Virus record (IMG/VR): IMGVR_UViG_3300027851_000043
Coordinates: 1-48,126 of that record
DNA from: a virus
Direction: 5' to 3' (one strand)
DNA: 48,126 bases
The notes under the pieces: generated by a model
Databases searched by the model: none
What the model was told of the DNA's origin: nothing
What the model saw: the letters and a program-made list of their open reading frames with translations, nothing else
In this document: positions 1,238-48,126 of the stretch, in pieces
Layout: each line of letters starts with the position of its first letter
How positions within the stretch are numbered: position 1 is the stretch's first letter
Program-made: the position numbers and the translations under genes

Positions 1238-1740
1238 GGAAGGTGGTCCTTCTCTTTTTGTTGTTGTTTTTGTTTTCTGGCTCGGATCGCGGATAGCCTG
1301 CGGCCGATGTCACTGACACCCATCCGGTTCAGCGGGGGGTTCAGGGCTGCGATGGTCTCCCGTTCCCACCGGAGCCTTTCTGGCCCGTCTTCGATGTAGA
1401 TCGCTACGGCGCAGTCGAAATCCTTCCGCCCCAAACCATTCTCCGCCCTTGAGCGGTGCTCGGACACACGGCGAAGCACGCTTGTGCTCGTACCCACGTA
1501 GACGACATTCACACCCTTGATCAGTGCGTAACACCCCGGCAGGTTCCAGAGGGCGAAGGTCAGGCCTCCAGCGCTCCGTGCCCGCCCCTCAAGCGTAGCT
1601 AGGCAGCTTTCGGAGTTGAGCAGGGCCAACCGATCCGCCGTGAGGAGGACCTCGTTGTGTATGTGGGCTATCTCACGCAGTAGGTCCAGTCGCGTGTAAC
1701 CTCTGTAGACCCTAAGCATCTCTGCGTCTAGGTCGCTCAT
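1234..1740 (-). CDS. GIY-YIG nuclease, probable free-standing homing endonuclease
   Basis: Residues 69-137 hold a GIY-YIG domain: GCY (for GIY) at 69-71, YVG at 81-83, Arg90 in the R-x-x-x-H helix, a Glu-rich helix around 121-128 and the closing LNPPLN. The N-terminal 65 residues are unrecognised. The C-terminal tail (KQKQQQKEKDHLP) is encoded by the leader of the next gene, which is a duplicate of this gene's own leader. Such enzymes spread by cutting alleles that lack them; here the insertion seems to have kept the downstream ribosome site intact. Confidence 0.75.
   Translation of the reverse strand: MSDLDAEMLRVYRGYTRLDLLREIAHIHNEVLLTADRLALLNSESCLATLEGRARSAGGLTFALWNLPGCYALIKGVNVVYVGTSTSVLRRVSEHRSRAENGLGRKDFDCAVAIYIEDGPERLRWERETIAALNPPLNRMGVSDIGRRLSAIRARKQKQQQKEKDHLP
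1235..1264 (-). repeat. 30-bp direct repeat, copy 1 (leader and start codon of HTH gene)
   Basis: On the + strand it begins CATGGAAGGTGGTCC and ends in the T-rich stretch TTTTTGTTGT. It is identical to 1738-1767. It contains the start codon and ribosome-binding leader of the excisionase-like gene, and is also read through by the 3' end of the GIY-YIG gene. Confidence 0.9.
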
Positions 1741-1767
1741 GGAAGGTGGTCCTTCTCTTTTTGTTGT
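1738..1767 (-). repeat. 30-bp direct repeat, copy 2 (leader and start codon of GIY-YIG gene)
   Basis: Identical to 1235-1264, 503 bp away. The two copies bracket the GIY-YIG gene exactly, as expected if the gene arrived together with a duplication of the leader. Confidence 0.9.
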
Positions 1768-1769
1768 CG

Positions 1770-1791
1770 AAAAGCGGGGCCGAAGCCCCGC
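1770..1791 (-). terminator. Rho-independent terminator
   Basis: On the minus strand a perfect 7-bp stem GCGGGGC/GCCCCGC closes a stable TTCG loop and is followed by TTTT. It sits just after the HNH/AP2 gene and before the leader of the GIY-YIG gene, so it should separate the TAXI/HNH transcript from the GIY-YIG/HTH genes. Confidence 0.75.
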
Positions 1792-1795
1792 GCTG

Positions 1796-2275
1796 TCAGG
1801 TTACGGCGGGGAACGCAGCAGCCTCAGCCAACTTCCGGGCCGTAACGGCGTCGGAAATGTGCGCGTGGTACCCAAGGCTTACCTGACGGCCGCTCAGGGT
1901 GATGTGCGCCCTCCACCTGCCCGAGGCTCGGTGCCACGACACCCCGCGGAAACCGCTGGTGTTGTTGGCCGGGACCCCGCTGTTGATGGCGTTATCCGCC
2001 CGGGTCACCTCTCGAAGATTCTTCCAGCGGTTGTTGAGCGGGTTGCGGTCAGCGTGGTCGACTACACCGACGGGCGCTCTGCCGGTCATCAGGGCCACCG
2101 CAAGGTGTTGGGCGAGGTACTTCCTCCCACCCACGCCGATCAGCAGGTAACCTCCTGACACGTAGCCAGCCGGCTGACCCTTCAGCTCTGGTCGACGGGG
2201 TGGAGCAGTTTTCCACCAAAACGCACCGGTTTCTGGGCAATAGCCGAGGCAGTCCCGTAGGTGTTGGATGTCCAT
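1796..2275 (-). CDS. HNH endonuclease with AP2 DNA-binding domain
   Basis: The first ~35 residues (FWWKTAPPRRPELKGQPAGY) and the central VDHADRNPLNNRWKNLR block form the HNH core (His-Asn type). The second half, NNTSGFRGVSWHRASGRWRA followed by VSLGYHAHISDAVTARKLA, is an AP2-like beta-sheet domain. HNH-AP2 proteins are phage free-standing homing endonucleases. I place the start at the ATG at 2275, five bases after the TAXI gene; the frame stays open upstream to 2311. It is followed by the terminator at 1770-1791. Confidence 0.8.
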   Translation of the reverse strand: MDIQHLRDCLGYCPETGAFWWKTAPPRRPELKGQPAGYVSGGYLLIGVGGRKYLAQHLAVALMTGRAPVGVVDHADRNPLNNRWKNLREVTRADNAINSGVPANNTSGFRGVSWHRASGRWRAHITLSGRQVSLGYHAHISDAVTARKLAEAAAFPAVT

Positions 2276-2280
2276 GACGG

Positions 2281-4934: not shown

Positions 4935-7055
4935 TTACAGGGAAATGATGTGGTCGGCCACCGCCGAGCTCACGTCCTCGTGCGTCACCAGCAGGATCTG
5001 CTGGAAGCCGCTCGATGCGATGAAGCCCAGCAGGTTGCTGGTGCGAGCGTCATCCATGGCCGCGGCGGGCTCGTCCAGGATGAGGAAGGGTGCCGATGGC
5101 AGGAAGGTGCGGACCAGCGCCACACGGATGGCCAGGCCCAGCGCGTCCAGCGTGGACCCCGACAACGACGAGATCGGGTGACCGTCGACCTCGAACCCGT
5201 CGGCGCCCTTGGTCACCTTGGAGCGCTCGCCACGGATGTCGCTGAAGTAGCCGCTGACGGCCGACAGCACGATGTTCCAGAGCTTGTCGGCGATCATCGG
5301 GCGCACCTGTCGCACCCGCTTGAGCAGCGCGTTGTTGAACTCGACCTCGGTCAAGGAGGCACGCAACTTGAGCAGGCGGCTCTCGGCGTCGCTGGCCGCG
5401 GCCACGGCGCGCTCGTAGCTCGCCTTGGCGGCCTCCAGCCCCTGCTTGAGGGCCTGCAGGTGGGTCTGCGCCGCCGTACGGGCGTCTGCAGCGTCGTTGA
5501 CGGCCTGGCGGGCGGCCTGCAGCGCTTCGAGGGCGGCGGAAGCGTCAACCACCGATGCCACAGCCAGATCCTCCATCAGGGCGTCGAGATCGGCCTGGGC
5601 GTCCTTCAGCGCCTTCGAGGCGGCAGCGTGTGCCGCGCTGGCCGCGGCGGCATCGCGCTGCTGCTTGCGCATCGTGGCCACCTTGGAGCGCAGGGCGCTG
5701 ACATCCTGCAGAGCCTCGCCAACGGCGGGGCCGATCCAGCGCAGCTGCGGCGGCTGGGTGCAGCCCACCTGCTCCAGCAGATCCGGGAAGCGGGCAAGCC
5801 AGTCGTTGGGGGTTTTCGAGGCCTGCTGGATTTCCAGCATGTGGTTCAGTTGCTCCGTGTTGGATCCCACGACCGAGCATGTCAGGTGGGCCTCGGCCGC
5901 CATCTTCTCCTCGATCTGGGCACGGATACTCGCGTTCTTGGCTTCGACCTCGGGCACCCCGCTGAAGTCCTTGCCACAGAAGGAGCACAGGCCCTGCAGG
6001 AGCTGTTGTTCCAGCACGCGGATGTCGCCCGCCAACTTCGAGGCCTCGGTCTCGGCGTTGCGGATGATCTTGCGGGTCTCGGTGATCGAATTGGCCAGGC
6101 TGTCAGCAGTGCCGTCGACGAAGTCGTCAGATTTGACGAAGAGAAATTCAACCTGGCGGTACACGGTCTCGCGCCCCTCGGCCTTCTCAGCGTCAGCGGC
6201 CTGGGCTTCGACAGCGGCGATCTCCTCGTCGGTCGGTGCGCCCGCAACGGTGCCCACGGCCTTCAGCTCGTCGGCGGCTTTGTCGCGGCGACGCTCGGCG
6301 CGAGAGACGCGGTCGACGAGGTCCTGCCGGGCCTGGGCCTTCAGGCGCGCGGCGGAGTAGGTCTCGTTGGCGGCGTCGGCGTCGGTCTGGGCCTGCAGGT
6401 GGGCCACCTTGGCGTCCTGCCAGGCGGCGTCCGCTGCGGCGATGTCGGCGGACAGGGCCTTCTCGTTGACGGGGACGATGGCAGCCTTGGCCCGCTCCAA
6501 GTCTTCCTCGGCCGACTTGATCCCGGCCTCGATGTTGGCGGTGCTGCCAAGGGACAGCTCCTCCTGCATCAGCTCCAGCAGCTCGTCGATCTGCGAGAAC
6601 TCGGCAAGTCGCTCGATCAGCGCCGTGGTCTCCTTGGCGCCGGCCGACAGCGCGCCGCGGATCTCGTTCTGGTTGGACAGGGTCAGGCGCGCGGCGGCGC
6701 CGGCGTCCATCTTCAGCAGGCGGGCGATGAAGGCGGTGACCTCGTTCTGGCCGGTGACCGTGCCGCCGTCGTAGTTCACCTCGGCGCCGGACTTGCCCCG
6801 GCGCACGTTGTAGACCACCCCATCAACGGCAAGGTCCAGTTCGACCTTCAGGGTGTTGGTGGCCTCGCCCCAGGTCACGCAGTCCTCGAGGCTGTTGCGG
6901 ATGGCCTTGACGCCGAAGCAGGCGTAGGAGATGGCCTCCAGCAGCGTGGACTTGCCCTGCTCGTTGAGGGCGCGGATCACGGAGAGGCCAGCACCGAAGC
7001 TCACATCGAGCGAGCGGTGGCGGCGGAAATTGGTCAGCTTGATTCGTTGCAGCAT
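4935..7055 (-). CDS. SbcC/Rad50-like ATPase (phage gp46-type recombination protein)
   Basis: A 706-residue SMC-like ATPase. The Walker A is NEQGKST at 31-37 in a LTNFRRHRSLDVSF context. Two long Ala/Glu-rich coiled-coil arms meet at a zinc hook, CSFC at 357-360. The ABC signature SSLSGS starts at 629, Walker B FLILDEP at about 657 and a switch His in VTHED. With the SbcD-like nuclease at 8500-9600 it would process DNA ends and hairpins during recombination-dependent replication, as T4 gp46/gp47 do. It is much shorter than bacterial SbcC (about 1000 residues), as usual in phages. One exact copy of the 11-mer lies inside the signature motif codons. Confidence 0.92.
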   Translation of the reverse strand: MLQRIKLTNFRRHRSLDVSFGAGLSVIRALNEQGKSTLLEAISYACFGVKAIRNSLEDCVTWGEATNTLKVELDLAVDGVVYNVRRGKSGAEVNYDGGTVTGQNEVTAFIARLLKMDAGAAARLTLSNQNEIRGALSAGAKETTALIERLAEFSQIDELLELMQEELSLGSTANIEAGIKSAEEDLERAKAAIVPVNEKALSADIAAADAAWQDAKVAHLQAQTDADAANETYSAARLKAQARQDLVDRVSRAERRRDKAADELKAVGTVAGAPTDEEIAAVEAQAADAEKAEGRETVYRQVEFLFVKSDDFVDGTADSLANSITETRKIIRNAETEASKLAGDIRVLEQQLLQGLCSFCGKDFSGVPEVEAKNASIRAQIEEKMAAEAHLTCSVVGSNTEQLNHMLEIQQASKTPNDWLARFPDLLEQVGCTQPPQLRWIGPAVGEALQDVSALRSKVATMRKQQRDAAAASAAHAAASKALKDAQADLDALMEDLAVASVVDASAALEALQAARQAVNDAADARTAAQTHLQALKQGLEAAKASYERAVAAASDAESRLLKLRASLTEVEFNNALLKRVRQVRPMIADKLWNIVLSAVSGYFSDIRGERSKVTKGADGFEVDGHPISSLSGSTLDALGLAIRVALVRTFLPSAPFLILDEPAAAMDDARTSNLLGFIASSGFQQILLVTHEDVSSAVADHIISL

Positions 7056-7058
7056 GTC

Positions 7059-7247
7059 TTACCTTTTCTCGACCGAGCAGAGCACCCGGACGTTTTCGTT
7101 CTGGATGAAGCCCCGCTCCTCGCACTGCTTCACGATTTGCGGGTAGTGGCGGAGGTCCATGACAAGGGAGCTAACCCCAAGCCCGGCAAGGACGAACAGG
7201 GCCAGTACAAGGAGCCCCCCCAAGGATGTCGTCGCCGTCCATGTCAG
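7059..7247 (-). CDS. Small membrane protein, start uncertain
   Basis: From the ATG at 7160 only 33 residues follow (MDLRHYPQIVKQCEERGF...). The same frame is open upstream and encodes a clear membrane segment, LGGLLVLALFVLAGLGVSSLV, so the real protein is probably about 62 residues. The best-placed start is then a CTG at 7247 that overlaps the previous stop (CTGA) and has GAGGGA before it; a TTG at about 7223 is the alternative but lacks a ribosome site. Two Cys lie in the short C-terminal domain. Function unknown. Confidence 0.5.
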   Translation of the reverse strand: MTWTATTSLGGLLVLALFVLAGLGVSSLVMDLRHYPQIVKQCEERGFIQNENVRVLCSVEKR

Positions 7248-7429
7248 AGATCCCTCGCCAGCTCGAGACCGAGCATGGTCAGTGCGACGAAGCCATGGTC
7301 ACCGTGGGCGGTCACCACCTGACTGAGGGCTTCCATGGCCTGCTTGACTTTGGCCTGATCTTCAGCGGGCATCTCCGAGAGGATGCCCTTCATCATCAGA
7401 CGCTGCGTTTCGACTTCTGCGTTTTTCAT
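7244..7429 (-). CDS. Hypothetical protein, 61 aa
   Basis: Helical small protein starting MKNAEVETQRLMMKGILSEM. The central segment (EDQAKVKQAMEALSQVVTAH) is amphipathic and no catalytic motif is seen. It starts two bases after the thymidylate synthase stop and ends where the small membrane protein begins. Probably translated with thyA; function unknown. Confidence 0.7.
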   Translation of the reverse strand: MKNAEVETQRLMMKGILSEMPAEDQAKVKQAMEALSQVVTAHGDHGFVALTMLGLELARDL

Positions 7430-7431
7430 GT

Positions 7432-8259
7432 TCAGACGGCCACGGGGGCGGAGATGGGTGGGCGGGGGTCGTACGAGATCAGCTCGATGTCGTCGGCCGT
7501 GTAATCGAAGATGCTGTCGCGCTTGCGCAGGGCGAGGCCGGGGTAGGGGTTGCCCGTCCGGTCCAGCTGCGTTCGCACCTGCTGGAAGTGGTTGTTGTAG
7601 ATGTGGGTGTCGCCGCCCACCCACACGAACGAGCCGGGCTTCAGGCTGCACTGCTGCGCGATCATGCAGGTCAGCAGGGCGTAGCTGGCGATGTTGAAGG
7701 GCACGCCCAGGAACATGTCCGCGCTGCGCTGGTAGAGCTGGCAGGACAGGTGCCCGTCAGCCACGTAGAACTGGAACAGCGCGTGGCAAGGGCTCAGAGC
7801 CATGCGGGGGAGGTCGTCCACGTTCCATGCGCTGACCACCAGGCGGCGGCTGTCGGGGCAAACACGGATCGCTTGGATCACCTCACTGATCTGGTCGATC
7901 GGGCCATACTGGCCCGACCACGAGCGCCACTGCTGGCCGTAGATCGGGCCCAGGTCCCCGTCAGGCTTGGCCCACTCATCCCAGATGTGCACGCCGCGCG
8001 CCACGAGGTCGTTGTTGTTGGTGCTGCCAGAGAGGATCCACAGCAGCTCTTCGACAACGCCTTTGAACCAGACCTTCTTGGTGGTGATGAGGGGGAACCC
8101 GTGGGGCAGCCACCACTCCATGCGGGTGCCAAACAGGCTTCGGGTGCCGGTGCCCGTGCGGTCGCTTTTGTCGGCGCCGCGTTTGAGGACCTCTTCGAGC
8201 AGTTCTTCGTAGGCGAAGTCGTAGCCCCTGGTGGGCTCGATCACAATTTCTTTGGTCAT
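7432..8259 (-). CDS. thyA: Thymidylate synthase
   Basis: A 275-residue ThyA: converts dUMP and methylene-tetrahydrofolate to dTMP. RTGTGT at 34-39 binds phosphate, Cys158 in [11 protein letters not shown] is the nucleophile, RSAD at 178-181 and the HIYNNH block at 219-224 are the usual substrate-binding elements. Length fits the family. It supplies dTMP for phage DNA synthesis together with the dNMP kinase at 15545-16093. The start ATG overlaps the stop of the upstream 83-residue gene. Confidence 0.96.
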
Positions 8260-8507
8260 TTGTCGGTGTCCTTTCTGCTGGCTTTGAATGCTGAGACCCT
8301 CTCGCGGGCCGCGTTGAAAACGGTGAGGGCTTCGTCCTCGAGGCCGTACAGGGCGGTGAGCCGGGCCAGCTCCTCCAGAGCCCCCAGCGCCACCTCTTTC
8401 GGGCGGTTGGATGGCCGCTCAGAGTCGAAAACCCGCGCACTCTCGTAGCCGTCATCGCACTCAAGTTGGATCTTCACGTGCAGGTAGGTCAGCTTTGGAT
8501 CACTCAC
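8256..8507 (-). CDS. Hypothetical protein, 83 aa (GTG start)
   Basis: Starts at GTG 8507, overlapping the last codons of the SbcD-like gene, with AAGGGGCTGAGC upstream. The first half is beta-like ([19 protein letters not shown]), the second a charged helix ([20 protein letters not shown]). No family recognised. Lies between sbcD-like and thyA genes in the same overlap chain. Confidence 0.65.
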
Positions 8508-9600
8508 GCTCAGCCCCTTCGCGCAGGTCCTTGACGGCCTGCTGCTGCTCTGGAGTGAGGTACTCCATCAGCAGTTCGATGACGTTGACGGAGCGGATGT
8601 CCTCGATGGACTCGGCCACGCTGTCCAGGCCCTCGGCCTGCTCGACCTTGACCGCGTTGGTGACCACGAAGGACTGGGACTTGGCACGGAAGGCGGAGAT
8701 CGCCTTGATCGCTTCCGAGGACTCGGACAAGGTCGCCGTGCCTTCGACGCGGATGAAGCCACGGCCCTCCTCGACAACGTCTTTGAGCTCGCGCCAGTCG
8801 ACGCGGGCGAACCAACCCTCAGCGTCGTCTGGAGTCCACGTCGTGACGTAGCGGTGCTCGTTGGTGTCGTGGTCGATGATCAGGGCACGCTTGATGCCGT
8901 CGGCCTGCGCGTCGCCATGAGGCAAGCAGTCGGCCACCGATGTCGGGAACTGGTTGCCGATGATCAGGACGTTGCCAGCCATCAGCTCGCGGCCCTGGTG
9001 CTCGTGGCCCAGCACCAGCTTGGCGTGCTTGCGGATCGCCTTGGCCTGGTCCCGGGAGATGTTCAGCGAGTGGTCGCTGGCGCAGGCGAAGGTGTTGTCG
9101 TAGTTGCAGTGCAGGAACACCCACTTGGCCGACTCCGGCACGCGCGTCAGCTCCAGGTCGAAGATCTCCTGGTTGGTGACGTGCGGCAGGATGTAGATGT
9201 CGGGCTGGGAGACCAGAGCCTGTGGGCGCTTGATGAGCTGGAAGTTGATGTGTTGCATCGCCAGCAGCTCGCCGACGAAGACCACGGTGCCCAGCTTGGA
9301 GCTGTCCTTGGACAGGTCGTGGTTGCCCACGGCCCAGATGAGGTCGATGTCGTGGTGGTCCGTCAGGAAGTCCCGTGTGACCGAGTAGATCTTCAGGGCC
9401 TCGGCCAGCAGCGTGTCGTAGGTGTCCGTGAGGTCGCCGTTGACGATGATGCGGTTGCAGCCCTCACGCTTGGCCAGGTGCAGCAGCTTGCTGTACTGGT
9501 TGAGGGCGTATTCGCGCAAGGCTTCTGCGGTCGCCCAGGTGGTGCCGCCGGTGCGCTGCACCCCGAGATGGGTGTCATTGATGACCAGGGTCTTGTTCAT
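8500..9600 (-). CDS. SbcD/Mre11-like nuclease (phage gp47-type)
   Basis: A 366-residue metallophosphoesterase. Metal-binding motifs appear in order: DTHLG at 9-13, GDLTD at 55-59, GNHD at 92-95, HCNYD near 164-168 and GHEHQG at 198-203. It should be the nuclease partner of the SbcC-like ATPase at 4935-7055. The start is the ATG at 9600 directly before NKTLVINDTHLG; the longer open frame upstream is the shadow of the zinc-finger gene it overlaps. Unusually, four genes including thyA separate the two subunits. Confidence 0.92.
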   Translation of the reverse strand: MNKTLVINDTHLGVQRTGGTTWATAEALREYALNQYSKLLHLAKREGCNRIIVNGDLTDTYDTLLAEALKIYSVTRDFLTDHHDIDLIWAVGNHDLSKDSSKLGTVVFVGELLAMQHINFQLIKRPQALVSQPDIYILPHVTNQEIFDLELTRVPESAKWVFLHCNYDNTFACASDHSLNISRDQAKAIRKHAKLVLGHEHQGRELMAGNVLIIGNQFPTSVADCLPHGDAQADGIKRALIIDHDTNEHRYVTTWTPDDAEGWFARVDWRELKDVVEEGRGFIRVEGTATLSESSEAIKAISAFRAKSQSFVVTNAVKVEQAEGLDSVAESIEDIRSVNVIELLMEYLTPEQQQAVKDLREGAERE

Positions 9601-9829
9601 TTTTCCTTTTCCTGTCTGCGGCCTCAAGGGCTGCGATGCGGGCCTGTTCGCTGCGGGCGAACCGGTCCTGTTGGGCAAGTTTCTCGAGGGTTGGGCGACT
9701 GAGGCGACGCTTGGCCTGGCAGTCAGCGCACTGCCCCCTCCTCGTGCGGTACTTGGGGTCCACGATGTCGACAAACCCTGCGCAGGGTTTGTCGCACCGG
9801 CAGTACATGCAGAAGCGTCGCTCGCTCAA
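9575..9829 (-). CDS. Small zinc-ribbon protein, 84 aa (TTG start)
   Basis: CMYCRCDKPC and, 24 residues on, CADC form a likely zinc site; the C-terminal half is a basic helix (LEKLAQQDRFARSEQARIAA). The start is TTG at 9829, overlapping the stop of the nuclease gene (TTGA) with a strong GGAGGT six bases upstream. The C-terminus overlaps the start of the SbcD-like gene by 26 nt. Function unknown; nucleic-acid binding is plausible. Confidence 0.68.
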   Translation of the reverse strand: MSERRFCMYCRCDKPCAGFVDIVDPKYRTRRGQCADCQAKRRLSRPTLEKLAQQDRFARSEQARIAALEAADRKRKNEQDPGHQ

Positions 9830-10299
9830 GAGAACACCTCCGGGTAGATGTACTGGAGGGCGCCCATGGGCGTGTCGAAGAAGGGGTGGTCCTTCAGGTT
9901 CCACGAACCCTTGTCGCCGTTGTGCTCCATCCAGGCCGGCGTCAGAGCCCGCCACTGCCCCGTGGTCGAGTGCAGCACCAGCACCACACACTTGGCGCCA
10001 CATCGAGAGCGACGACGCAGTCGTGGAAGCTGGGGCACCTTGTCACGGGCAAGCCGGTACTCGTGCTGCGTTTCCTTGACCTCGATCAGGCCGCTCGTGG
10101 CGGCGCCTCGGAGGTCGATGCAGTGGTAGTCGAAGTCGGCTGCAGCAGCCTTGATCGTTCGGCCGGCGGCCTTGGAGTCAAGGAGGCGCTCGTACTCGCG
10201 GGTGGAGGACTCCCCCATCCAGGATTTGAGAGCAGCCTGCACACAGGTCTCGGCGACTTTGCCGCGGTCGGCAAAGCGGTTGACGGTCTTGAAGGGCAT
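9826..10299 (-). CDS. PD-(D/E)XK nuclease-like protein, possible Holliday junction resolvase
   Basis: Residues 55-75 read DFDYHCID ... TSGLIEVKETQHEYRL, the Asp and Glu-x-Lys arrangement of PD-(D/E)XK nucleases, close in style to RecU-like resolvases (EAKET). The next stretch (LARDKVPQLPRL) and a beta strand CVVLVLHS fit the fold. It would act on recombination intermediates alongside SbcCD and the helicase. The specific family cannot be fixed without a profile search; a VRR-type nuclease is the alternative. Confidence 0.6.
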   Translation of the reverse strand: MPFKTVNRFADRGKVAETCVQAALKSWMGESSTREYERLLDSKAAGRTIKAAAADFDYHCIDLRGAATSGLIEVKETQHEYRLARDKVPQLPRLRRRSRCGAKCVVLVLHSTTGQWRALTPAWMEHNGDKGSWNLKDHPFFDTPMGALQYIYPEVFS

Positions 10300-10300
10300 T

Positions 10301-10528
10301 TCACTTGCCCCCCGACAGCGTCGACATCAAAGACGCATGCTTGGCCCGGCGCAGGCACCCACAGCTGCGGGACTGGCCGGAGACCATCTTCGTGAGTGCC
10401 CGGGTTCCGACCGTGCCGCACTCGCAGCGGACCTTCCAGGCGTGCTGCTTGTGCTTGTCCAGCCCGGCATACTCGACCAGGGTCCAGCGGCCGAAGGTGT
10501 CGCCGGCTTTGCGTTCTGGTTGGGTCAT
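10301..10528 (-). CDS. Stand-alone zinc-finger domain related to homing-endonuclease N-termini
   Basis: A 75-residue protein with CECG ... SRSCGCLRRAKHAS. The same CxC..(about 20)..SCGCL finger forms the N-terminal domain of the two HNH-like genes at 10807-11415 and 38320-38967, but here no nuclease part follows. The start ATG overlaps the previous stop (TGATG). It may be a remnant of a degraded endonuclease or a free DNA-binding domain. Confidence 0.68.
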   Translation of the reverse strand: MTQPERKAGDTFGRWTLVEYAGLDKHKQHAWKVRCECGTVGTRALTKMVSGQSRSCGCLRRAKHASLMSTLSGGK

Positions 10529-10734
10529 CAGGCACCCCCGCGCAGGCGTTCTTTGACGCTGGGCGGGAGCACCGGCCGCAGCCCCCACGCGATGTGATCA
10601 TCGCGCCAGGGCCCGGTCGTGAGAATGCCGCCCGACGTGACGACCAGCAGGTCGACGTTCAGTGGCGGCGGGTTGGTGTGGGGATCGAAAAGGACCCAAT
10701 CCTTGTTGGTGGGTCGTGGCAGGGTGTCACCCAT
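10528..10734 (-). CDS. Hypothetical protein, 68 aa
   Basis: Starts MGDTLPRPTNKDWVLFDPHT; Pro-, Asp- and Trp-rich (FDPHTNPPPLNVDLLVVTSG, WRDDHIAWG), a single small beta-rich domain common in phage early regions as unknowns. It has a clear ribosome site (AAAGAGGTGCAGC) after an AACAACAACAA leader, which in turn follows a GC hairpin. Confidence 0.62.
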   Translation of the reverse strand: MGDTLPRPTNKDWVLFDPHTNPPPLNVDLLVVTSGGILTTGPWRDDHIAWGLRPVLPPSVKERLRGGA

Positions 10735-10772
10735 GCTGCACCTCTTTATTGTTGTTGTTATCGGATGCGCAA

Positions 10773-10792
10773 CCCCGGCTCGTTGGCCGGGG
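10773..10792 (-). terminator. GC-rich hairpin behind HNH-like gene (terminator-like, no T-run)
   Basis: CCCCGGC/GCCGGGG, a 7-bp perfect stem with a 6-base loop, 15 bases after the stop of the HNH-like gene. No T-tract follows on the minus strand, so it may be an RNA 3'-end stabiliser or a weak terminator. Confidence 0.45.
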
Positions 10793-10806
10793 TCTGGATT
10801 ATGCAC

Positions 10807-11415
10807 TCATTTGTGTGAGTACCTGCTTGGTTTTGTCAGGGCCTCCTCCATTGTCATTCCAAGGGTTGTGACTCGGTACTTCAGGGCTGAGGCCTTTCTT
10901 TTGTGCCTCTCGGCCCACTCCGCTACGGTTAGTGTTTCCCCGAAAGCCCCGTACTTCCTGGTGGTCCTCCGGTTGCGAGCCTGCTCTTCCGGGGTGGACC
11001 ACTTCACGTTACCGGGCTCATAGCCTTTCTCGTTGTCCACTCGGTCCAGGCTGAGTCTCTCGCCGGGGGCGTCGCCCACGTCGGCCTTGAAGGCTTCAAA
11101 GCTGTCCGCCCACCTCGAGCACACCCGAATACCTCTGCCGCCGTAGTCCGGGTAGTGTTTGTCGTTGGGATTTCCGCAGCGGTCCTTCATGGCCGCCCAG
11201 ACCCTGTACAGCTTTGTCTGGCTTGCCCCGTGGGTGGTGGACCGTGCCGACAGACGTTCTGCCCTCAAGCACCCGCAGGATTTGGACCTTCCGGCGTTGA
11301 TGGTGTACGCGTCCACCACCCGCTCAACCCCGCAGGCGCAGACGCACCTCCAGGTCTTTGGGAGTTTCTCCGCTAGGGTCCACCGCCCGACAACGTCACC
11401 AACCACGTGCTTCAT
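10807..11415 (-). CDS. HNH-type homing-endonuclease-like protein with zinc finger
   Basis: A 202-residue protein in three parts: N-terminal zinc finger (CVCACG ... SKSCGCL), a central nuclease-like segment with DRCGNPNDKHYPDYGGRGI, then LSLDRVDNEKGYEPGNVKW and EQARNRR, and a C-terminal helix-turn-helix-like tail (LTVAEWAERHKRKASALKYR). The central pattern is a widespread phage endonuclease type. The gene begins one base after the DNA polymerase stop, a favoured location for free-standing homing endonucleases. The start is the ATG at 11415; the open frame further upstream lies inside the polymerase gene. Confidence 0.75.
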   Translation of the reverse strand: MKHVVGDVVGRWTLAEKLPKTWRCVCACGVERVVDAYTINAGRSKSCGCLRAERLSARSTTHGASQTKLYRVWAAMKDRCGNPNDKHYPDYGGRGIRVCSRWADSFEAFKADVGDAPGERLSLDRVDNEKGYEPGNVKWSTPEEQARNRRTTRKYGAFGETLTVAEWAERHKRKASALKYRVTTLGMTMEEALTKPSRYSHK

Positions 11416-11416
11416 T

Positions 11417-14400
11417 TCACTCCTTGAGGGCCTCCGCAATGGCCTCGTTGATTCGACTCTCGTCGGGAACTGCCCCGACCTCGATCTGCTGGCCAAAGTT
11501 CGCGCCCAGCGAGATCTCGGAGACGATCGGGATCGTCATGCCGCCGTAGGGTTGGACCATGCAGGCGTGGGCCTCGCAGATCACCTTGTAGGCGTCGTCC
11601 TTGTGCACACTGAAGACGACTTCATCGTGCACCGGGAAGTAGAACCGGGCGTTGTACTTGCCGCGGAAGATCCCGCGGGCCCACATCTCGGCGATGGCCA
11701 GCTTGGTCTGTTCCCCTGCGCTAGATTGTATCGCAAAGTTTGGGCCCTGGCGACCGGCTTTGGCCGCCTCCCATTTGTCGTCAGACAAGATGGCTGCGCG
11801 AAGATGGCGGCGAGCGCCCATCAAGGTGGTGGCGTAGCCCAGCTTCTCGACCTGCGCGCGGACCTCGTCCTTCCACGAGTTGATCCGGGGGAAGGCTTTG
11901 TCCTTGGCGTCGAGGAAGGCCTGTGCGGTCTCCTCGTCGGTCAGCAACTCCTGTGCGATCTTCGGGGCCATCGCGTCGTACTGCGAGGCGAAGTTCACGG
12001 TCTTGGCGTCGCCGCGCAGGTCCTTGGCCTTCTTGGCCACGACCTTGTCTGCCGACTCGCGCATCGCCAGGAACTCGTCGTAGTCGACCGGCGTGTCCCA
12101 CAGGTAGATCGACGCGGCCACCGCGGTCAAGCTGTGCGGGTCCTTCAGGTCGTCACCGACGTAGCAGGCGGTCAGGTTCTCGTCGCCGGACTGGAACGCC
12201 ATGGAGCGCAGCTCCTGCCCGGAGAAGTCCATCGACACCACCACGGCGTCCTTGCAGTGCGGCCGGATCACCTCGCGGAACTCCACGCCCTCGCCCCGCT
12301 TGGGCATCTGCTGGGCGTTGGGGTTGCTCGATGAGTGCCGGCGCGTCACCGTGCCGCACTGGTTCATGCTGGGGTGGATCCGGCCATCACGCCAGTGCCC
12401 GATCGCCTTGTAGGTCTTGTAGAACAGCGACCGGCGGGTCTGCACGGTCTTGATCGTCTCGTAGGCCTTGAGCACCGACTTCTGCTCGTCGTCAAGTTCG
12501 TCCTTGGCCAGCGCCCAGCGCACGGCGTCATCGTCGGTTGAGGCCTTGGAGATCAGGGCGTCCAGCTCCTCGTCGGTGACGGGGTGCACCTTGATCTTCC
12601 GGCCCTTGGAGTTCAGACCCTCGGCCACCTCGGTCAGCGAGAACAGGTCCAGCTTCAGGTCTTTGGCGCCGCGCAGCTTGCGGAACCCGTCGGCCATGGC
12701 CTCATTGGTCTCGCGCTGCTTCTCGGTCATCTTGTTGAAGATGCGCGGGCGCAGTTTCAGGACCCGGTAGAACAGGTTCTGCATCTGCTTCGGGCTGCCG
12801 AAGTTGATCTTGGGTTCGCCGGTGAAGTTCTGCTTGACCAGTGCGGCCAGGCCGGCGACATCGTTGCGCTCGACCATGCTGGCCAGCAGCTCGGCCATTG
12901 AGGAGTCCGGGAACTGCGCACGGATGTCCACGGCCATCGCGTCCAGCTTGCGCTTCTTGGTGGTGAACTGCACCTCGTCGGTGTCCAGCAGCAGGGCGCA
13001 GGCCTCTTTGACGACTGCGGGGGTGATCTCGACGATGTCGGGGCACCGGGTGCCTTCCCAGCCCTGGGCCATCAGGTACTCGCGCAGCACCTTCCAGGCT
13101 GCCTCGTACTTGGCGTCGTCCTTGGCCTCCATATCGCGCAGCTTGGACAGGCTGATGGGCACACCCTGCACGAAGGCAAGGCTGGTCTGGTACTCCGGCA
13201 AGGTCTCCACCCGGTGGTACACGTCCAGCGTGTTCTCGATCTCCATCACCAGCGTGTAGTAGGTGTGCAGCGCCGCGGTGCAGATCGTGTCGTCACAGCC
13301 GTAGTCGAAGACTTCGGCGGCGGTCAACTCGTTCATGCGGTACTCGCGGGACTCCCACTCCTGCATGACAGGCATCTCGACGACGATCTCCCGCTCCACC
13401 TCGTTGATGCTGTCCCAGGCCGTGCCCATGACAGCGGGGACGATCTCCTTTTTGTAGGACTTCTTGACCTTGCCGCCCCTGAGGCTGCCGACCGGGCCGT
13501 GCTTGGTGACGGTCTCCTCGTAGGTCTGCTGCTCATAGCCCAGGTGCAGCTTGGAGCGCTCCTTGAGGCCGTTGGGGTGGTTCTCGTCGGTGTAGGAGGC
13601 GCCGATCTTCGTGTCCACGGCGTTGGGCACCATGCCCGACCACCCGTTGTCCTTCCAGATCTCACCCCAGGTGCGGTACAGCACCGAGAACTCGAATTGG
13701 CGGTTCTGGATCACGATCTCTTGCGTCTGCGGGATGCGCTCGCACATCTGGCGGCACTGGTCCACCGTGATGTTGTCGCTGTCCTTGTGGTCCACCGTCA
13801 TGTAGATGGTGTGCTGGCAGTTGTCACCGAACGTCAGGCCCATGCCTGTGAGCTCGTGGCCGAGCACATCCAGGCGGTCTCGGTCGCTCTCGGTGGCGGC
13901 CTTGAGCTGCTCGGACCACTCAGCGGACTCGTCGCTCTCCGACGTTTCGATGTCCAGCGCGGTGAACGGGCTGGACTTCACGGCGTTGGTGAAGCGGCCC
14001 AGCACCTCGGTGTAGTTCTTGGCCGTGACCAGCGTCTTGGTGCCGTAGAAGCGGCGCAGCTCGTCCACCCGCAGGTCAGGGTCCAGCTCGGACCACTGGG
14101 CCACCATGCCGGGGCGGAGCGTCAGCGGGTTCTTGACCGTGTTCACGCGGTCTAGGAAGAAGCTGGCGCAGCGCCAGCTCGTGTACACCCCGGGCATGTC
14201 GTTGAGCACGATCTGCAGCGCGGGGAAGTCGGCGACGTCTTCCTTCAGGCGGGGCAGCTGGTCGTTCTCGATCAGCTCGATGAAGGCGTCCAGGCCCTCG
14301 AGGCCGAAGGCGGCCACGAGCTGGGTGAACTTGGCATCCCCGAAACCCTTGGCGCCGGGGATCTTGTCGGAGACGTCCCCGACAAGGGCTTTGTACAGGG

Positions 14401-45950: not shown

Positions 45951-45968
45951 GTTGAACTCCTAAAGGGC

Positions 45969-45983
45969 GGCCCAATGCGGGCC
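45969..45983 (-). promoter_or_regulatory. 5'-UTR stem-loop (AATGC loop family)
   Basis: GGCCC-AATGC-GGGCC, upstream of the 198-residue gene, directly next to a DnaA box. Confidence 0.75.
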
Positions 45984-45992
45984 TGTGGATAA
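45984..45992 (-). promoter_or_regulatory. DnaA box
   Basis: TGTGGATAA on the + strand, so the minus strand reads TTATCCACA, the E. coli consensus. Confidence 0.8.
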
Positions 45993-46019
45993 CTTGTTTC
46001 GGCGAGACAAGGTCCCCGG

Positions 46020-46251
46020 TTGGGTACCTTCGGACAAAACAGGTTTCGGCGTTGATCTTACAGGTAAAAAATTTTCAGACCCTAGCGGTACCCAACTTTT
46101 GCCCAAGGAAGGTCTGAAAAATTCAAAGTTCATTTCATATTGTGAAACGAGAAAAAGAGGTCGATTTTTCCAGCTTTGGGTACCGTAAGGGTCGAGAAAA
46201 AAAGTCCCCTGAGATCAAGGCGAAATGGAGATCTGTCCGAAGGTACCCAAG
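46020..46251. repeat. Imperfect inverted repeat bounded by GGTACC
   Basis: Left arm 46020-46096 and right arm 46177-46251 match as reverse complements over about 75 bp with mismatches. Each arm starts TTGGGTACC and ends with GGTACCCAA, giving four GGTACC sites. The 80-bp centre contains the palindromic TTTCATATTGTGAAA (46134-46148) and is AT-rich. It could be a cruciform-forming origin element or an operator array. Confidence 0.8.
46134..46148. promoter_or_regulatory. Dyad TTTCATATTGTGAAA
   Basis: TTTC/GAAA arms at the centre of the inverted repeat. A copy with two changes, TTTCATATCGCGAAA, lies at 46754-46768; together they suggest a binding site for a phage initiator or repressor. Confidence 0.5.
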
Positions 46252-46394
46252 CACTTGAACTGCATGGTTCAGACGTGAACTGAGCAGTAATGTCGCTTGC
46301 AAGCAACAGATTCAGGCTTGGGTGGTTAGTGCCCACTCACGTACGGGGGTTTTGACGTTGTCGGGGCACGCTGACGTTGTCGAGGTTGCGTTTG

Positions 46395-46425
46395 TGTGGA
46401 CAACCTGTGCACAACCTGTGGATAA
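46395..46425 (-). repeat. Three 11-bp iterons (DnaA-box type)
   Basis: TGTGGACAACC, TGTGCACAACC and TGTGGATAAGT at 11-base spacing, one helical turn apart. The last contains a perfect DnaA box (46417-46425). Confidence 0.75.
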
Positions 46426-46426
46426 G

Positions 46427-46824: not shown

Positions 46825-47031
46825 TCAGGCGGGCACAGCCTGCGCACTGGCCCAGCGGTCGCTGATGTTCTGGGCGCTGGCCATGGCATCGCCGCGGTCG
46901 TCGGTGTGGTACCCGTCGCCGAACAGTGCCGGGTTCTGGCGCTGATCGGGCGTCATGACGACGTACTCACCCCACTCGGCGTCGCGGTACACCGTGGCGT
47001 GCCCGACCTGGGCGATCTTGCGTTTGGACAT
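46825..47031 (-). CDS. Hypothetical protein, 68 aa
   Basis: Starts MSKRKIAQVGHATVYRDAEW with GGAGGCCAAACC upstream. Beta-rich then Ala-rich tail (MASAQNISDRWASAQAVPA). Most upstream gene of the minus-strand series in this window; unknown. Confidence 0.62.
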   Translation of the reverse strand: MSKRKIAQVGHATVYRDAEWGEYVVMTPDQRQNPALFGDGYHTDDRGDAMASAQNISDRWASAQAVPA

Positions 47032-47108
47032 GGTTTGGCCTCCAGTTATGGATGTGGGTTCAGTTACAAATTCAACTCAGGGCTGCCCCCGTTTTTGAGC
47101 CCCGACAA

Positions 47109-47163
47109 CGGCTATGCCAATTTGCTATAGCACCGACAACGTCAGAGCACATCGGCATAGCCG
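47109..47163. repeat. 10-bp perfect inverted repeat
   Basis: CGGCTATGCC and, about 34 bases on, GGCATAGCCG; the loop carries a variant of the 11-mer. Confidence 0.6.
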
Positions 47164-47175
47164 TCATCAGAGCCC

Positions 47176-47198
47176 CCCCGACAACGTCGTTGTCAGGG
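47176..47198. repeat. Palindrome of two 11-mers
   Basis: CCCCGACAACG-T-CGTTGTCAGGG, perfect except one base. A similar GACAACGTC/GACGTTGTC pair is at 47379-47399, and CCCCGACA-a-TGTCGGGG at 48056-48072. Confidence 0.75.
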
Positions 47199-47263
47199 AC
47201 AGGGTCGATGTCATCGTTCAAGGGCAGGGACAGGCATTGGCCACGCCGTCTGCGACGACGCAC

Positions 47264-47300
47264 CAGACCTGAGCGCACTACGGGAATGCGCTCAGGTCTG
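47264..47300. repeat. Hairpin with 14-bp perfect stem
   Basis: CAGACCTGAGCGCA and TGCGCTCAGGTCTG with a nine-base loop; no T-run on either side, so not a typical terminator. Confidence 0.75.
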
Positions 47301-47316
47301 CCCAGCACGCTGGGCA
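47301..47316. repeat. Hairpin GCCCAGC/GCTGGGC
   Basis: Seven-base stem with a two-base centre, abutting the 14-bp hairpin. Confidence 0.6.
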
Positions 47317-48126
47317 ATGGGGAAGGTTTGGACGGTGTTGTGTGCTGTAGCCCTGACAAGGGCATGGCCACCGGCCATGACAACGTCGGTGACGTTGTCG
47401 GGGTGCCTGATCGAAACCAGGTCATGGCGTGTTACTCCCACGCTTGCAGATTCGTCCCCCGTGACCGACCCTAGGGGGACCGTTGACGCATCGGTCATGC
47501 GCTGGCACTTTGGCGTCAGAGCCCTTTGAGCTGCCGGCAGGAAGTGACCCTGCCCGGATTGCCCAGGCCCCATACGAGGTGCCACCACATCACTGTTTCA
47601 CGCTTTGCCGGTCTGCTGTCCGCTGTCGAATATCCCGACGCGCTCCCAGACCCCACCGGGCGCAGCTGTACCTGATCGTCGAAGATCGGGCAGGGAACTG
47701 GGCGCGGTTGGGGTGACAACGTGAGCGCCTGGCGCTGCATCGGCGCACCTGGCCATCGCCCCGTTACAGGGTCTGGCTACGGTGCCCGGTGTGCTGGCGT
47801 TGCTCGCTGGCGTTGTCGGGGTATGGGCTACGCGGCGGGCCAGTCCTTGGCATGGGGGACGGGCTCGGCGTTACTTGGGTGACGTGGCCCACCGCTTAGG
47901 TGCGGTGGTCACTGATAGGGGGTATCTGACGCGGGCGCCGCGGTTGTCGGGGGCGCGGGTTTCGACCGTGGCCGGGCGCCGCGTCTGGCGCGGGCCGTGG
48001 CATGGGCGAAACCGGCCAGCCATGGCGCACCTAGGGGCGCGGCATGGGGGCAAGCCCCCGACAATGTCGGGGCGGTTATCGCGTCAGATTGTCAAGGATC
48101 GGGCGGAGGGGGCAACCTTGACCGGG

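Follow-up and report, generated by a model that had tools for sequence, protein, structure and literature searches.

Dispersed copies of an 11-base word, probable repressor operators, across the early arm and in the control region of a family of temperate phages

The window, by which we mean the whole stretch of DNA analysed, is an IMG/VR virus record in full, 48,126 bases long and classed as 'linear'. All of the called genes (80 of 80) lie on the minus strand, so that the gene-free end at 47032..48126 is upstream of a leftward arm. This arm holds SbcC, SbcD, thymidylate synthase, PolI, primase, helicase and ligase together with many small genes, the first of which is g80 (46825..47031, minus strand; 68 aa, phrog_7884, function unknown). 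No structural genes were recognised among the window proteins scanned and the window contains no tRNAs. GenBank phages with similar DNA gave short matches only, mostly to thymidylate synthase.

The initial annotation had described 47032..48126 as free of genes, and the gene caller indeed leaves it empty. The reading of this region as a decayed gene, raised at the same time, was rejected because no conserved reading frame was found: ORFs of at least 40 aa within it had no tblastn match in relatives (E <= 0.01). It is not the only long gene-free stretch, as had been supposed, since 1238..2280 (about 1 kb) and 45951..46426 (0.5 kb) are likewise empty. The DNA of the region is matched in relatives over only three stretches, which hold palindromic elements built from the 11-mer described below. 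An Rfam scan matched no family. Sigma-70 promoters and intrinsic terminators are not enriched within the region; promoters are not enriched near the sites either, and no sigma-70-like one was found there, a point against the operator reading favoured below.

Four exact copies of an 11-mer, CGTTGTCGGGG, had been reported and are present at 47100, 47176, 47393 and 47811. The first (47100..47110, plus strand) reads CCCCGACAACG and is followed by a site with one mismatch, CACCGACAACGTCA, at 47131..47141 on the same strand. The palindromic pairings claimed for the word also exist. A convergent pair, CCCCGACAACGTCGTTGTCAGGG, occupies 47176..47198, with an exact plus-strand site at 47176 and a minus-strand site with one mismatch at 47188, and falls within a 56-bp stretch that is 80% identical in the relative G006. 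A second convergent pair (47375..47403) is built around GACAACGTC-GGT-GACGTTGTC, with a weak plus-strand site at 47375 and an exact minus-strand site at 47393; its palindromic part, GACAACGTC-GGT-GACGTTGTCGGGG, spans 47379-47403. This pair is kept in a prophage of a metagenome-assembled genome (MAG; 62 bp, 79%) and in G007 (25 bp, 92%). Further along are an exact site at 47811..47821 and one with a single mismatch at 47942..47952, both on the minus strand, and the palindromic variant CCCCGACAATGTCGGGG at 48056..48072, to which CCCCGACACTGTCGGGG of the MAG prophage is similar. The next gap leftward carries two in-line minus-strand sites at 46356..46385, exact at 46356 and with one mismatch at 46375.

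Two hairpins had been noted here and both were recovered; like the words and the palindromes, they far exceed what chance would give. The perfect 14-bp stem (47264-47277 with 47287-47300; 9-nt loop, 47264..47300) is the longest perfect stem with a loop of 3-15 in the whole window, and mononucleotide-shuffling the region 200 times gave stems of 11 bp at most. It contains neither the word nor a T-run. The second, at 47099..47173, is a long imperfect hairpin in a leftward leader transcript (minus strand) with 28-nt arms that are 79% complementary; the stretch that holds it, 47090-47200, folds with z = -9.7. Two more perfect stems, of 11 bp with 4-nt loops, lie at 9769-9794 and 289-314 of the window (CGACAAACCCTGCGCAGGGTTTGTCG; CGGACAGGGCCGGTGGGCCCTGTCCG), in gaps between called genes. 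Separately, TTTCAYATTRTGAAA dyads are common to window 46137-46155 and the control region of the relative G001 (L007) and resemble a host regulator box.

The word extends far beyond the gene-free end. The window has 20 exact copies, against 0.08 expected from dinucleotide shuffles, and 15 of the 20 are inside called genes, all in the early arm: 2619 and 5157 on the plus strand, and 15694, 19654, 23484, 26411, 29770, 33745, 36975, 38018, 41213, 42709, 43475, 43955 and 45881 on the minus strand. Eight long, diverged relatives have 10-30 exact copies each. The reversed word, used as a control, occurs 0 times in the virus records and seven times in the whole 3.3-Mb MAG genome. In the eight genomes for which both arms are in hand, the early arms hold 123 exact words in 339 kb and the late arms five in 260 kb. 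Synonymous codon shuffles of nine genomes predict 11.7 words in early genes, where 82 are observed, and PDN, the tripeptide that the word encodes, is over-represented too (13 in the window against 1.5 expected), from which it follows that the DNA is what is selected. Alignment of the copies gives an extended site of about CCCCGACAACGTCA..G.C...G, the same in genic and intergenic copies. A profile of this site has 29-62 hits per early arm at the middle threshold, and its consensus is closely alike in nine of nine genomes. The word is thus a real, selected DNA element of the whole family, over-represented in the early arm and forming a cluster where early and late arms meet. A literature search for it returned unrelated papers only. 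Another repeated element, CCCAATGCGGG, occurs seven times in the window (30660, 32102, 36431, 39591, 40212, 45971 and 46701), in one direction throughout; each copy is a few bases from GTTGGACTCC or a variant and at or just upstream of a leftward gene start, and G001 carries the analogous GTTGGACTCCAAA. This element looks like a start-associated sequence.

A search with PolI led to G001, a 71-kb phage with a PolI 63% identical to that of the window and the same 11-mer 18 times (reversed control, 0). Its map runs from a leftward early arm through a gene-poor, word-filled stretch (about 14.0-18.5 kb) into a rightward arm that opens with a helix-turn-helix (HTH) protein, soon followed by a terminase homologue, and it probably depicts what the window has lost. 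Across the relatives the words are most crowded where the leftward replication arm gives way to the rightward structural arm. The earlier suggestion that the gene-free end is a control centre, or the target of a factor that reads the 11-mer, is supported by this word cluster between early and late arms in the corresponding region of the relatives. We regard 47032..48126, which has no called gene or conserved reading frame, as best explained by being the left part of the early/late, that is lysis/lysogeny, control region of a temperate phage, across which the end of the record cuts.

Further members were found by scanning for the paired word and for the terminase; those found by the paired word are biased towards having the word, those found by PolI or terminase are not. 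Among new terminase hits (>5 kb upstream, >= 46% identity) the word is present in L049, L050, L054, L080 and L097 and absent from L051 and L053. Backbone proteins are common to nearly all members, and one member, G012, has the backbone and no word. Metagenomes, one IMG genome record and one MAG were the only sources in which this family of 71-86-kb phages was found. Isolated phages with similar gene order and genome size are Pseudomonas PMBT3, Vibrio SHOU24, Achromobacter JWF and Xylophilus Lumi; PMBT3, JWF and Lumi, where inspected, have a leftward replication arm and a rightward structural arm as in the family. Among the hits listed for this group, TerL is 25-31% and portal 32-34% identical, and the word has 0 copies in PMBT3 and in those stretches of JWF and Lumi that were inspected.

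The paired word matched one bacterial genome, a proteobacterial MAG, on a contig of 1.7 Mb. The family prophage there adjoins a host gene that by eye reads as lon, and its integrase lies beside tRNA-Cys. Direct repeats of 48 bp, 92% identical, are found at 681444-681491 and 759861-759908, the 3' end of tRNA-Cys being copied at the far side. At least one family member is therefore an integrated prophage. The MAG genome has 33 words, 20 in the prophage and 13 outside it.

Exact intergenic words favour the sense of early transcription (42:18). Genic words are also biased in this sense (71:12), but late-gene background hits are biased alike (50:7), so the genic bias is discounted and was dropped as evidence for stoperators. 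Sites in the control region have mixed direction (78:50). Convergent pairs, with varying spacing, occur in the control regions of ten of 11 members, five of which, with the MAG, were fetched through such a pair; among the five members not so fetched (G000, G001, G014, G015 and G016), four have one. Of intergenic neighbour spacings between 12 and 60 bp, 67% fall at multiples of 12 +/- 1 against 25% expected, a figure that comes from 27 partly non-independent pairs, the period being the best among the ten tried. The site has a 6-bp periodicity of its own. Neighbouring sites in the family's control regions tend to be spaced by multiples of 6 or 12 bp, and in G003 (L017) nine overlapping profile hits at 6-bp steps (2441-2489) make up a tandem hexamer array of the GTCAAC type that ends in an exact word.

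What might read the word? At the right edge of the control region, relatives encode a protein with two HTH units, transcribed away from the early arm; this position lies beyond the end of the window record. An AlphaFold model of the MAG protein (mean pLDDT 81, pTM 0.39) consists of two three-helix units plus a long helix; Foldseek returned nothing for it at E <= 0.001. A Peptidase_S24 domain of the LexA/CI type is fused to it in G014, G015 and G016, all of which bear the word, so that in these members an HTH plus S24 protein sits next to the sites as in CI/LexA-type systems; the domain is absent from the protein in G001, G003, G004, G008 and the MAG. When proteins restricted to word-bearing members were sought with profiles, four families emerged, and only the two-HTH one resembles a DNA-binding regulator. 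Position and domains make this protein, in some members HTH-HTH-S24, the natural repressor candidate and the best candidate reader. Against it, the recognition helices differ strongly among phages with a common site and vary more than the site does, and G012, which lacks the word, encodes a similar protein at the corresponding position; a host or backbone protein is a real alternative. HNH-like genes beside the integrase, judged by eye, were rejected as repressor candidates.

Our analysis favours, with some confidence, the idea that the words are dispersed repressor operators of a temperate phage, with the early promoter or promoters shut by paired sites and the early arm blocked by single ones. 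A sequence-specific phage repressor would read the word as its operator. In the prophage, its binding to the paired sites of the control region would close the early promoter(s). Single sites spread over the early arm of roughly 48 kb, those in genes included, may act as extra, stoperator-like blocks to initiation or elongation. Occupancy of this kind would silence the replication genes, and induction, in some members by S24 cleavage, would release the early arm. We also entertain, as a possible but doubtful extension, an operator code held invariant across phages that otherwise share only about 50% protein identity and read by a factor other than the variable CI-like protein, in which genic sites would cost protein sequence (the Pro-Asp-Asn excess) and spacings at multiples of about 6 or 12 bp would suggest an unusual cooperative reader.

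Alternatively, the word may act in RNA, CCCCGACAACG(U)CA in early transcripts being a signal for antitermination, for attenuation or for pairing with an RNA that the phage makes from its control region, where inverted words form tall hairpins. In keeping with such a role are the very stable folding of 47090-47200, the stable hairpins that convergent pairs form in relatives and the intergenic sense bias, whereas both directions are common in the control region, hairpin loop and spacing are not conserved, no Rfam family was matched and about one site per kb exceeds what antitermination needs. We consider an RNA signal unlikely.

We think it similarly improbable that a host protein or a conserved phage replication protein reads the word, with repression or DNA handling independent of the variable CI-like protein. 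The constancy of the site beside divergent candidate repressors would fit such a reader, as would the near-universal presence in members of backbone proteins, among them g20 beside PolI, by eye a putative winged-helix protein. Against it, G012 has the backbone without the word, the MAG chromosome outside the prophage is not clearly enriched (13 words against seven for the reversed control) and among 399 genomes from the order only that of the MAG carries the paired word. A host-wide word of the Chi or KOPS kind was rejected on the last two grounds.

Replication-origin iterons, or a partition or packaging site, could account for a repeat cluster in a gene-poor boundary region, and the initial annotation had offered partition, packaging or termination as functions. 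We hold iterons and partition or packaging sites to be very unlikely, and find termination unsupported as well, since the word is scattered over some 40-50 kb of early genes, within genes as well as between them, and nearly missing from the structural arm; moreover, the family can integrate into the chromosome, and no partition genes were seen among those window and MAG prophage proteins, a part of the total, that were scanned with Pfam and PHROGs. An artefact of codon usage or of a common tripeptide, suggested by the Pro-Asp-Asn frame of most genic copies and by the 0.3-3 copies per genome that codon shuffles alone yield, is already refuted by the seven-fold excess over those shuffles, the excess of PDN itself, the clustering in non-coding DNA and the near absence from late genes of the same genomes.

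Dispersed repressor operators, the reading we prefer, are documented in a few phages, namely L5 and its relatives, P1 and SP-beta, and the present family resembles them in that one site recurs many times across the genome of a temperate phage. The repressor of mycobacteriophage L5 and cluster A uses operators and stoperators (PMC9283540, PMC6550527). As in L5, a short asymmetric site recurs across the genome of an integrating phage, the early arm would be under repression and the candidate reader has two DNA-binding units. L5 sites are 13 bp long, strictly oriented and placed at promoters and in short intergenic gaps (PMC9283540, PMC6550527), whereas the present site is about 23 bp, often lies in genes and has mixed direction in the control region; the candidate reader is HTH-HTH with a coiled coil or S24, and the hosts differ, ours being a proteobacterial MAG. 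Pfam and PHROGs scans of chosen proteins named no L5-like repressor. We do not claim membership of the L5 type because no such repressor was identified and the orientation data are mixed. C1 of P1, a temperate phage of a proteobacterium, has an asymmetric 17-bp operator at 22 dispersed places (PMC8546580), a likeness in site and in host. P1 is, however, a plasmid prophage, whereas the present family integrates at a tRNA gene, the words are unrelated and no C1 homologue was seen in the family. In Bacillus SP-beta the repeated element SPBRE, scattered over the prophage, is the binding site of the master repressor MrpR (PMC10516654); SPBRE is described as intergenic, the fold of MrpR is that of a tyrosine recombinase and the word is again unrelated. 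By analogy, the word system would best be explained as a functional counterpart of the L5 stoperators, the P1 C1 operators or the SPBRE sites of SP-beta.

With this family, the documented cases of dispersed operators would gain one where the sites lie within coding sequence, and to a degree that alters protein composition. Immunity groups would also be predictable from sequence: members that share the word should cross-immunise, and G006 and G012, with changed and no words respectively, should not. G006 is possibly a hetero-immune relative. In this genome (L033) a perfect palindrome, TCCCCACGTGGGGA, occurs at eight dispersed places within 6142-13245, and beside it stands a changed word, CCCCGTCAACGTC, with eight copies of the 11-base core.
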